Both the position numbers and the translations under genes were made by a program. From an uncultured Nitrosomonadales bacterium (GTDB taxonomy: Bacteria; Pseudomonadota; Gammaproteobacteria; Burkholderiales; Gallionellaceae), in contig CAISHO010000053.1 in assembly GCA_903885165.1 (NCBI GenBank), forward strand, positions 1 to 35,141: a stretch of 35,141 bases of DNA, given 5' to 3'. Numbering within the stretch: the stretch's first letter is position 1; the number at the start of each line of letters is the position of its first letter. Of the stretch, positions 2,768 to 6,852 are shown piece after piece. The notes under the pieces were generated by a model, which saw only the letters and a list, made by a program, of their open reading frames with translations, made no database searches and was not told the origin of the DNA.

Positions 2768-3010
2768 TGTAATTTTAATGCGTTAGTTTCGTCGTTTTTT
2801 TCGGTATTTTCTTCAGGGGTGATTCCGGTAAGTTTTGTTTGAACCGCCTTTTTCGGGCGATTAAATTCGTTATTAGGCATTTTTCGGGTGATCTAGGAAA
2901 GCAATGTAATTGACCTCAATGCCGTAATCGCGGATAGTTGAACAAATTCATTTAATTTACCTATCCTTAGCTGCAACTACGTGTCTGCGGCTGAGCAGTG
3001 GAGAGCAACT

Positions 3011-3409
3011 TTGAAGAAAAGAATAAATGTCGTAGGCGCGGTTCTCACTCGAGGCCAGACGATTCTTGCAGCACAACGCAGCTCGACAATGTCACTATCT
3101 GGAATGTGGGAATTTCCCGGAGGGAAAATCGAGCTAGATGAGTCACCCGAACAGGCGCTACTCCGCGAACTTGACGAGGAGTTACTCTGCTCGGCTGAGA
3201 TCGGCGAACACATCCAAACTACAGAGCACGAGTACGACTTCGGTATCGTGATTCTGACCACTTACTACTGCTCGCTGACGGGCGAAGAACCCCGTCTGAC
3301 TGAGCATTCGGCGATTCGATGGGTTCAGGCCGCTGAGTTAGACCAGCTCGATTGGGCTCCCGCCGACATACCCGCCGTTGAGCAAGTCATGAGAGATTTT
3401 CAGGTTTGA
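3011..3409 (+). CDS. Nudix hydrolase, NudG/MutT-like ((deoxy)nucleoside triphosphate pyrophosphohydrolase)
   Basis: Complete Nudix box GKIELDESPEQALLRELDEEL; C-terminal 'APADIPAVEQVM' resembles NudG. TTG 3011 has GGAGAG at 3000-3005; alternative GTG start at 2981. Confidence 0.88.
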   Translation: MKKRINVVGAVLTRGQTILAAQRSSTMSLSGMWEFPGGKIELDESPEQALLRELDEELLCSAEIGEHIQTTEHEYDFGIVILTTYYCSLTGEEPRLTEHSAIRWVQAAELDQLDWAPADIPAVEQVMRDFQV

Positions 3410-6333
3410 GTTTGATTAGTCGGCAACTGACGCAAGACAACAACTTCGGTTTTCTCAATTCTCGGGTCAACGCTGACCAGGTATTCCATCCCAGGCTCGT
3501 CTCAAACTCCGACGGCAATACCATGCTCCGAGCGATTCGTGACGAACTCAAGCGCTCGAGTCACTTCGTGTTCTCTGTCGCATTCATCACGCCGAGCGCG
3601 ATAGCGATGCTCAAGCAAGCGATCCTCGACTATAAAGGATCCGGCAGTATCATCACCTCGACCTACCTGGGGTTCAACTCGCCAGCCGCATTTCGCGAGC
3701 TCCTGAATCTCAAGGAAATTCGCGTCTACGTGCATCCCGACTCTTCTGCCGGGTTCCACGCCAAGGGTTACATCTTCGAACAGGAGTTAAGTACGACCGC
3801 GATTGTCGGCAGCTCAAACCTTACGGAGCGTGCGCTGCTCCTAAATCACGAGTGGAATCTTCGCTTCTCGGCACTACCTGACGGCGACATCGTGCAACAG
3901 CTCAATCGGGCTTCGATGGCACACATTGATGCCTCTGTTGCGCTCACGAGTAAGTGGATCGATGAGTATCAGCAGTCATGGTCAGCTCAAGTACGTCCGT
4001 CATCATCGGGATCCGGCCGGATCGAGGAATCACTCGAGCTGCCTTCTACCGGAGTCGTCCTTCCAAATGCCATGCAGATTGAAGCCCTCTCCGAAATTGC
4101 GGCATTACGCGAATCGGGGGAGACCAGAGGCGTCGTGATCTCCGCAACCGGGACTGGGAAGACCATTCTCTCTGCGCTCGACGTGCGCGCCTACGCTCCT
4201 AAACGGATGTTGTTTGTCGTGCACCGTGAGCAGATTCTTGATCGTGCGATTTCTGAGTTCAAGCGTGTGTTGGGAGCCCCAGACAGTGACTTTGGCAAAT
4301 TTGTGGGAGGTAAACAGGAGATTGACCGTCGCTATGTGTTCGCCTCCATTCAGTCGCTCTCACGGCCAGAGATTCTCGAGGCGCTGGCGCCCGATGCATT
4401 TGACTACGTTCTCATCGATGAAGTCCACCGGGCCGGAGCCACGAGCTACAGAAGAGTGATCGAGCATCTCAAGCCGGCATTTTTGCTGGGCATGACAGCG
4501 ACTCCGGAGCGCACGGACGACTTCAATGTGTTTGAACTCTTTGGCTTCAACGTGCCTTATGAAATTCGCTTGCAGAAGGCGCTAGAAGCCGACATGTTGG
4601 CGCCGTTTCATTACTACGGCGTCACCGACTTCGAGACGGAGAGTGGTGAAGTTATCGATCAACTCGCAGACCTCAGCAGGCTTGTCGCTTCTGAGCGCGT
4701 TGATCATCTTATCAAGACAATCGAGAAGTATGGCCATGCAGGTGCGCCAGTTCGGGGGCTTATTTTTTGCAGTAAGAACGCTGAGGCGGCCGAGCTTTCG
4801 GACCTTCTCAACCTTCGTGAAGTTCATGGGAAACCGCTCCGAACGCGCGCGCTCAGTGGGCGAGACTCGGTCGACGAACGCGAGAAGACTGTGCAAATGT
4901 TGGAGCGCGGCGAGCTTGACTACATAGCCACCGTCGATATTTTCAACGAAGGGATCGATATACCTTCTGTTAACCAGGTGGTCATGCTTCGCCAGACGCT
5001 GTCTAGCATCGTATTCACGCAGCAACTCGGGCGAGGTTTACGAAAGGCCGCGGGCAAAGATCATCTTGTTGTGATCGACTTCATAGGCAACTACGACAAT
5101 AACTACCTGATTCCAATCGCGTTGTTTGGTGACACTAGTCTCAATAAAGATTCGATTCGCAAGAAAATAATCGACGCTCAGGCAGCCGGTGCTATCGCCG
5201 GACTGTCGAGCGTCAACTTTGACGCAATCTCGAAGGAGAGGATCTACTCCTCCCTTGCGACCACTAGTCTTGACAGCATGACGAATCTCAAGAAATCCTT
5301 CGTCGAGCTGCAGAATCGACTGGGCCGAGCGCCGCTACTGCTCGACTTCGCCCGCTTTGATCTCGTCGATCCCAACGTGATAGCGACAAAGCAAAAGAAC
5401 TACTGGAAGTTCCTCGACAAGGTCAGTGCGAGCGATGCGCGTGCAGATGCCTACGAAGACTCTGTCCTGACGTTCCTTTCCGAAGAACTATTAAACGGCA
5501 AACGGCCCCATGAAATGCTCCTCCTCAAGGAACTTATATCGAATGCTGGTGAGCTACCTGTCGAGGATTTTTGCAGTCTTCTTGAGCAGAATAGTTTGAC
5601 ATTCGACCCGGCGACGCTCAGTTCTGTGCTGGCCGTACTAAACCTAGAATTCTTCACCGACGCGGAAGCTAGCAAGTATGGCGCCGCACCGATTGTCACT
5701 ACTCATGATGGTAACTACGAGCTTAGTGAAAAGTTTCTGGCGGCGTGGAACGATGACTTAATTTTCAATGGACACGTACGGGATGTGCTTGAAACAGGAC
5801 TGTATCTCGCTCGACACCGTTATAAGTGGAGTAGCGAGCTTGACGTAGGTCAACGCTATTCGCGAAAAGATGTCTGCCGTCTGCTCAATTGGAAGTCAAA
5901 TCAGCAAAGCACGATTTACGGCTACAAGGTTGATTTCTTGTCGAACAGCTGCCCGATCTTCGTCACCTATCACAAGGGCTCAGACGTCTCCGAGAGTACC
6001 AAGTATGAAGACGAATTTATTAACCCGTCGACATTGACATGGTTCACACGCAGCAGGCGCACGCTTGCGAGCAGCGAGGTGAAAGCGATCGTTGAGAATC
6101 AACTACCGCTCCATGTCTTCGCAAAGAAGGACGACGCAGAAGGAACTGACTTCTACTACCTTGGCAGGGCCACTTCTCAGGATGCCCGCCAGACAAAGAT
6201 GGCTGGAGACGGTGGGACTGAGCTTGATGTCGTCTCCATGACGCTGGACCTCGCGAGTCCGATTGAAACCAGTCTCTATGAGTACTTTGCGGCTCGAACG
6301 GTGGGCGTGCAGTGTCAACATTACCAAGGCTGA
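3406..6333 (+). CDS. PLD-like nuclease - DEAD/DEAH helicase - DUF3427 protein; SauUSI-like type IV (modified-cytosine-dependent) restriction enzyme
   Basis: PLD motif 'FHAKGYIFEQ...VGSSNLTERAL'; Walker A 'SATGTGKT'; 'LIDEVHRAG'; 'GMTATPERTD'; motif VI 'QQLGRGLRK'; C-terminus with DUF3427-like 'YSRKDVCRLLNW...STIYGYKVD...FYYLG'. TTG start overlaps the Nudix TGA stop (TTGA). Confidence 0.88.
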   Translation: MSLISRQLTQDNNFGFLNSRVNADQVFHPRLVSNSDGNTMLRAIRDELKRSSHFVFSVAFITPSAIAMLKQAILDYKGSGSIITSTYLGFNSPAAFRELLNLKEIRVYVHPDSSAGFHAKGYIFEQELSTTAIVGSSNLTERALLLNHEWNLRFSALPDGDIVQQLNRASMAHIDASVALTSKWIDEYQQSWSAQVRPSSSGSGRIEESLELPSTGVVLPNAMQIEALSEIAALRESGETRGVVISATGTGKTILSALDVRAYAPKRMLFVVHREQILDRAISEFKRVLGAPDSDFGKFVGGKQEIDRRYVFASIQSLSRPEILEALAPDAFDYVLIDEVHRAGATSYRRVIEHLKPAFLLGMTATPERTDDFNVFELFGFNVPYEIRLQKALEADMLAPFHYYGVTDFETESGEVIDQLADLSRLVASERVDHLIKTIEKYGHAGAPVRGLIFCSKNAEAAELSDLLNLREVHGKPLRTRALSGRDSVDEREKTVQMLERGELDYIATVDIFNEGIDIPSVNQVVMLRQTLSSIVFTQQLGRGLRKAAGKDHLVVIDFIGNYDNNYLIPIALFGDTSLNKDSIRKKIIDAQAAGAIAGLSSVNFDAISKERIYSSLATTSLDSMTNLKKSFVELQNRLGRAPLLLDFARFDLVDPNVIATKQKNYWKFLDKVSASDARADAYEDSVLTFLSEELLNGKRPHEMLLLKELISNAGELPVEDFCSLLEQNSLTFDPATLSSVLAVLNLEFFTDAEASKYGAAPIVTTHDGNYELSEKFLAAWNDDLIFNGHVRDVLETGLYLARHRYKWSSELDVGQRYSRKDVCRLLNWKSNQQSTIYGYKVDFLSNSCPIFVTYHKGSDVSESTKYEDEFINPSTLTWFTRSRRTLASSEVKAIVENQLPLHVFAKKDDAEGTDFYYLGRATSQDARQTKMAGDGGTELDVVSMTLDLASPIETSLYEYFAARTVGVQCQHYQG

Positions 6334-6761: not shown

Positions 6762-6852
6762 TGGCGGAGAAGGGGGGATTCGAACCCCCGTTGGGATATT
6801 ATCCCAAACACGCTTTCCAGGCGTGCGACTTAAACCGCTCATCCACCTCTCC
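6762..6852 (-). tRNA. tRNA-Ser(GGA)
   Basis: Minus strand: GGAGAGGTGGATGAGCGGTTTAAGTCGCACGCCTGGAAAGCGTG...(long variable arm)...CGGGGGTTCGAATCCCCCCTTCTCCGCCA; anticodon GGA, encoded CCA. Confidence 0.95.

Follow-up and report, generated by a model that had tools for sequence, protein, structure and literature searches.

What does a Nudix hydrolase contribute when its gene is joined to that of a restriction enzyme for methylated DNA? The question arises from a 35,141-nucleotide contig (the window; C53, GenBank CAISHO010000053.1 of assembly GCA_903885165.1) of an uncultured Nitrosomonadales bacterium of the Gallionellaceae, whose 2.44 Mb genome is 99.7% complete. Here a Nudix gene directly precedes a gene for a protein resembling SauUSI, the type IV restriction enzyme of Staphylococcus aureus. 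We found this pairing across dozens of bacterial genera, and within the SauUSI clade the Nudix gene is missing only where the residue that contacts the modified cytosine is asparagine. On balance we lean towards the view that the Nudix enzyme removes modified dCTP that would otherwise put SauUSI targets into host DNA.

The two proteins of the window

Both open reading frames described by a first-pass annotation of this DNA, one with a complete Nudix box and one combining PLD, SF2 helicase and DUF3427 regions, were recovered at the same positions with the corresponding Pfam domains. The features of the pair are as follows:

3000..3005, plus strand: probable ribosome-binding site of the Nudix gene, GGAGAG, 5 nt before TTG 3011 (from the sequence)
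3011..3409, plus strand: Nudix hydrolase, NudG/MutT2-like, PADLOC PDC-S07 (Pfam, PADLOC, PDB, AlphaFold2 model); the open frame reaches GTG 2981
3122..3190, plus strand: Nudix box, its catalytic residues conserved in 92-93 of 93 aligned SauUSI-linked Nudix proteins, with one gap
3365..3367, plus strand: Asp codon in the column of NudG Asp118, residue 129 counted from GTG 2981 (alignment)
3406..3409, plus strand: TTGA overlap of the Nudix stop and the probable large-gene start (from the sequence; similar in loci L037 and L004)
3406..6333, plus strand: 975-aa PLD-SF2-DUF3427 protein of the SauUSI type (PDB 7clg, PADLOC mREase_IV, Pfam)
3757..3765, plus strand: PLD nuclease HxK, with His118 and Lys120 equivalent to SauUSI His119 and Lys121
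4048..5130, plus strand: SF2 ATPase motor with Walker A ATGTGKT and DEVH (Pfam, alignment)
5773..6288, plus strand: C-terminal SRA-type modified-base reader inside DUF3427 (2.2e-86; alignment to the SauUSI TRD)
6010..6012, plus strand: Asp869 codon, equivalent to SauUSI Asp858 (residue mapping; PMC7913695)

The large protein aligns with SauUSI (PDB 7clg) from residue 4 to residue 961 (1.5e-224), matches the PADLOC mREase_IV profile (3.5e-231), and contains the Pfam domains PLDc_2, ResIII (4e-39), Helicase_C and DUF3427. The HxK residues are kept in 126/127 and 43/43 homologues, and the motor residues Lys252, Asp338 and Glu339 are intact. In SauUSI, Asp858 has been modelled as the contact to the flipped 5-methylcytosine (5mC) (PMC7913695); Tyr831, Phe841, Asp858 and Trp868 of its pocket correspond to Tyr840, Phe852, Asp869 and Trp879 of the window protein. 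Of the six pocket residues that the study names, five are retained or conservatively replaced, while the sixth, the inserted Met829 of SauUSI, is Tyr here and in most homologues. Its nuclease, motor and 5mC-pocket features identify the large protein as a type IV restriction enzyme of the SauUSI kind, which bears out the first-pass assignment. Its ATP-dependent cleavage of DNA carrying 5mC or 5-hydroxymethylcytosine is predicted from these features, and our finding no C5-cytosine methyltransferase in the window's genome is consistent with such an activity.

The smaller protein matches Pfam NUDIX (3.4e-19) and carries a complete box (GX5EX7REX2EE); its structure, modelled with AlphaFold2 from alignment rows of the window and the collected loci, has a pLDDT of 95.8. 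By catalytic box and predicted fold it is a Nudix hydrolase. It matches the PADLOC PDC-S07 profile PDLC04899 (175 bits, 9.6e-53, residues 11-139), and among solved structures it is closest to the S. aureus 'MutT' encoded by the gene adjoining SauUSI (5x1x, NMR; 7.7e-46), with NudG (2rrk) at 7.8e-22. A Foldseek search with the model placed MutT2 bound to 5-methyl-dCTP (5mdCTP; 5zro) at the top, and BdRppH, a Bacteroides CTP pyrophosphohydrolase and NudG were also close. The protein therefore keeps the company that its initial NudG-like label implied, grouping with NudG, MutT2 and CTP pyrophosphohydrolases and away from ADP-ribose or Ap4A enzymes, and it has equivalents of NudG Asp118 and Glu33. 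As an assignment to NudG proper the label fails: the protein scored 104.5 bits against the NudG equivalog model (NCBIfam PRK10546), whose cut-off is 156 bits. Hydrolysis of 5-methyl-dCTP by the window protein is predicted from this structural neighbourhood; the activity has been reported for Orf135/NudG, MutT2 and the unrelated human DCTPP1, and MutT2 hydrolyses dCTP too (PMC10742078, PMC3744803).

The Nudix gene had been drawn from GTG 2981; TTG 3011 is the more likely start because of the GGAGAG at 3000-3005 and the 130-133 aa length of homologues. Its TGA stop (3407-3409), taken with TTG 3406 as first codon of the large gene, gives the 4-nt overlap already described, and overlaps of 4 nt also occur in the close Cryobacterium homologue L037 (GTG start) and in L004 (ATG start). 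Because an in-frame TTG at 3412 could be the start of the large frame, the overlap in the window is probable.

Conservation of the pair and the cytosine-contact residue

Adjacency of the two genes, noticed at a single locus by the first-pass annotation, is the rule rather than a rarity. Among the 80 best SauUSI relatives in named genomes, 70 have a PDC-S07-type Nudix gene in their flanks, lying upstream on the same strand in 60, downstream and convergent in nine, and downstream on the same strand in one; a distance of 0.8-0.9 kb separates the genes in two of these loci, L104 and one of the upstream arrangement, and in S. aureus (L031, L034) the Nudix gene ends 1 nt before SauUSI. Chance adjacency is excluded, because approximately 789 kb of DNA flanking 89 related loci contained one other Nudix gene against 78 partners. 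At least 10 changes of arrangement among Nudix-bearing loci were counted on a tree of 118 large proteins, and the linkage has therefore been retained through rearrangement. The two proteins also co-diverge (Mantel r 0.38, 88 pairs, above all 999 permutations), which we set aside as special support, since any linked pair would show such a correlation.

The association extends to whole genomes, in counts that depend on profile thresholds and with most statistics, including the Fisher values, uncorrected for kinship. Among 349 Bacilli genomes (55 with SauUSI, 124 with Nudix), the Nudix gene occurs in 53/55 SauUSI-bearing genomes and 71/294 others (odds ratio 83, p 1.7e-25), and in 46 of the 55 it lies within 1.5 kb of SauUSI. 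In two of the apparently distant cases, insertions have broken the SauUSI gene, and the Nudix gene adjoins the fragment that remains. Among 201 Lactobacillaceae genomes (57 with SauUSI, 32 with Nudix), Nudix is present in 32/57 with SauUSI and in 0/144 without it. Six of nine searched SauUSI genomes that have no adjacent Nudix gene carry a copy elsewhere, and tblastn found no Nudix remnants in Nudix-less SauUSI loci. Where Bacilli carry the Nudix gene without SauUSI, 12 of 29 sampled loci place it within 1 kb of a second PLD-SF2-DUF3427 subfamily of ~1050 aa. A scan of 65 neighbours of lone Nudix genes for other type IV enzymes turned up just two things, a DISARM pair and a weaker match to mREase_IV; in the former (L242, 6517-11924, Bacilli) a lone PDC-S07 Nudix gene adjoins a DISARM-like DrmA/DrmB pair.

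Sixteen distant Pseudomonadota PLD-motor homologues, in which the SRA region is weak or unrecognisable, have no Nudix gene at a distance of up to 4 kb, as far as the contigs extend. Since NudG-like genes lie unlinked in these genomes, the activity may still be needed in trans there. In one distant Pseudomonadota homologue of the PLD-SF2 type, L249, a partial DUF3427 is preceded by a Peptidase_S24-like stretch.

The presence of the Nudix gene follows the residue with which the nuclease contacts cytosine. All 106 SauUSI homologues with Asp or Glu at this position come from genomes with a Nudix gene, adjacent in 97 and elsewhere in nine, whereas an adjacent copy accompanies 17 of the 51 homologues with Asn, and whole-genome searches found no Nudix gene in most of the Asn-reader genomes lacking an adjacent copy. 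A kinship-aware test gave nine independent contrasts, of which about six agree and none oppose (p ~0.03). We take this association to tie the Nudix enzyme to the base that the nuclease reads. The Nudix column of NudG Asp118 is Asp in 108/109 pairs with an acidic reader; in the 15 pairs with an Asn reader it is Asp in five and Asn, Ser or Thr in 10. This tracking of the reader residue by the Nudix pocket arose independently only a few times and is suggestive only. Our reading is that Asp is well matched to the exocyclic amino group of cytosine and that a reader which has ceased to require it may leave the Nudix enzyme free to relax and then to disappear. In Lactobacillaceae (L296, L302), two SauUSI genes lie in tandem within one genome, one with Asp and one with Asn as contact residue, and share a single Nudix gene.

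Directly downstream of SauUSI, one Microbacterium and some of the Lactobacillaceae encode a MazG-like pyrophosphohydrolase, representing a second pool-cleaning fold in the system (L029, 6889-7209; L111, 7846-8163; L039, 7907-8233; L033, 6951-7262; and L310). As it is present in few loci only, we rejected it as a regular third component. DCTPP1 is a member of the MazG-like superfamily (PMC4491611).

The nearest relatives of both window proteins are from Cryobacterium, at approximately 80% identity each. Elsewhere the window has genes of Pseudomonadota type (e.g. EarP, next to GltX, RlmN, HisS and Der), so that joint acquisition of the pair from Actinomycetota is likely. Immediately upstream (1050-2742), overlapping frames encode an AAA ATPase (PADLOC AbiLi, 3.4e-68) and an RloB-like protein (AbiLii, 6.4e-9), a separate AbiL-type defence pair adjoining the Nudix-SauUSI pair. 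Just downstream, a tRNA-Ser (GGA) on the minus strand (6762-6852) is a possible island border; we dropped it as an integration site, the tRNA sequence having no second copy in the window.

Possible roles of the Nudix partner

We propose that the two genes may form a pair of reader and sanitiser. The SRA domain would find 5-methylcytosine (or 5-hydroxymethylcytosine) in DNA, the motor would translocate, and paired PLD domains would cut. Since a SauUSI-type enzyme has no partner methyltransferase, modified cytosine incorporated from the nucleotide pool by DNA polymerase would become a potential target in host DNA. The Nudix enzyme would hydrolyse modified dCTP (5-methyl-dCTP and perhaps 5-hydroxymethyl-dCTP), which phage enzymes may supply or which may come from the salvage of 5-methyl-dCMP after foreign DNA is broken down, and would thereby prevent self-cutting. 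Removal of modified dCTP is favoured because of the structural neighbours, the activities in the literature, the MazG-like additions and the missing host C5-methyltransferase taken together, and self-protection fits best because the Lactobacillaceae Nudix never occurs without SauUSI. From these observations we infer the substrate, the benefit of self-protection and the activity of the window pair.

A wider form of this proposal, which we consider possible rather than probable, is a two-component immunity in which the Nudix enzyme guards against autoimmunity by clearing from the nucleotide pool the very base recognised in DNA by the SRA domain, and in which the two pockets co-evolve. The Asn branch would then have turned to a different modified base, its Nudix partner first changing accordingly and later being lost.

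Several observations weigh against self-protection by removal of modified dCTP. Arg72 and Arg77 of NudG have a role in substrate recognition; the corresponding columns hold His and Gly in the window protein and are not conserved, which also counts against the narrower NudG label. CTP and dCTP are substrates of NudG and MutT2 as well, which makes a general pool function possible, and the window host has further Nudix genes. In roughly half of the Nudix-only Bacilli loci sampled, a DUF3427 enzyme is lacking nearby, and the pocket covariation comprises three independent reader changes, with the Nudix changes mostly inside one clade. C5-methyltransferases occur in 13/53 SauUSI-bearing Bacilli; in Lactobacillaceae they occur in 3/21 SauUSI-bearing genomes with an acidic reader versus 39/144 (p 0.29), a trend only, which weakens simple self-protection because such depletion is what it predicts. 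We therefore dropped depletion of host C5-methyltransferases as support and used only the absence in the window's own genome. Because these methyltransferases occur in SauUSI-bearing genomes, some hosts tolerate 5mC, perhaps in other sequence contexts. As a separate, anecdotal observation, two Bacilli genomes (G646, G675) have C5-cytosine methyltransferases, a SauUSI gene disrupted by insertion or stop codons and a retained Nudix gene.

The main rival, which we judge unlikely, is that the Nudix enzyme is itself antiviral, destroying the 5-hydroxymethyl- or 5-methyl-dCTP of phages, which would then face ordinary restriction when using plain dCTP and SauUSI when using the modified base. It shares the substrate logic and structural neighbours of self-protection, PADLOC lists the Nudix protein by itself as a defence candidate, and lone copies without SauUSI exist. 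However, the confinement of the Lactobacillaceae Nudix gene to SauUSI-bearing genomes is expected of a safeguard and not of a stand-alone weapon, and less modified dCTP would weaken SauUSI's own attack on phage. The first-pass annotation had offered both roles for the pair, and host self-protection appears to fit the distribution better than depletion of phage pools; the idea of a Nudix enzyme purging modified dCTP beside a nuclease that destroys modified DNA is strengthened, short of proven.

Improbable too, and ranked below antiviral depletion, is a passenger role, in which the Nudix protein would be a (d)NTP pyrophosphohydrolase of broad range (CTP/dCTP/8-oxo-dGTP) that defence islands retain for general house-cleaning, e.g. 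to contain damage or to feed nucleotide turnover while restriction is under way, and that has nothing specific to do with methylcytosine. In its favour are the frequent promiscuity of Nudix enzymes, the lone copy in many Bacilli and the lack of the NudG-specific arginines here. Such a passenger would not account for a linkage that outlasts the repeated changes of gene order, for Nudix retention and a pocket residue that follow the reader's cytosine contact, or for the distant Pseudomonadota homologues that lack a linked Nudix gene though their genomes hold an unlinked one. Action on a signalling or cofactor nucleotide, regulating SauUSI or triggering cell arrest, could draw on the ATP dependence of SauUSI and on small overlapping genes often encoding regulators, and is very improbable given that the close sequence and structure neighbours are mostly cleaners of nucleotide triphosphates, that convergent and unlinked Nudix copies are unsuited to stoichiometric control, and that a MazG-like pyrophosphatase takes the 3' position in some loci.

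How type IV enzymes without a partner methyltransferase avoid self-cutting caused by pool-derived modified bases has been little discussed. If self-protection is correct, SauUSI, much studied as a barrier to DNA uptake, works with a second component that has been missing from its description and for which a structure already exists (5x1x); the widespread anonymous candidate PDC-S07 gains a function, and innate immunity comes to include sanitation of the nucleotide pool.

Relation to known systems

The adjacency of Nudix and SauUSI genes has already been noted in part. A functional proposal for the linked Nudix protein was not found in the literature searched, the coverage of which was incomplete. 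The legend of Fig. 9 in a 2020 study records that MutT homologues adjoin SauUSI homologues in Streptococcus (PMC7641849), the same adjacency as in the window; they are labelled 'DNA repair', and the passages searched gave no conservation analysis or mechanism. A 2026 survey of S. suis reported PDC-S07, the anonymous phage-defence candidate that the window Nudix protein strongly matches, as co-localised with type IV restriction in 23/23 occurrences (PMC12813430), and neither called it a Nudix enzyme nor assigned it a function.

SauUSI itself is homologous to the window protein over its full length, with an identical domain order and with HxK, the Walker motifs and the Tyr/Phe/Asp/Trp of the SRA pocket in common. 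The window protein is 42% identical to the S. aureus-type protein L034 and differs in the pocket by Met829 to Tyr and Ile842 to Val. The S. aureus locus likewise has its Nudix gene upstream, yet the study of the SauUSI mechanism treats a one-gene system, with 'Nudix' and 'MutT' nowhere in its text (PMC7913695). E. coli NudG/Orf135 and mycobacterial MutT2, both among the top structural neighbours and the latter solved with 5mdCTP, share the Nudix box, the pocket Asp and the W-E-x-P/A-G-G-K motif with the window Nudix protein at 37-40% identity; they are encoded by stand-alone genes, whereas the Nudix gene of the window is linked to a nuclease.

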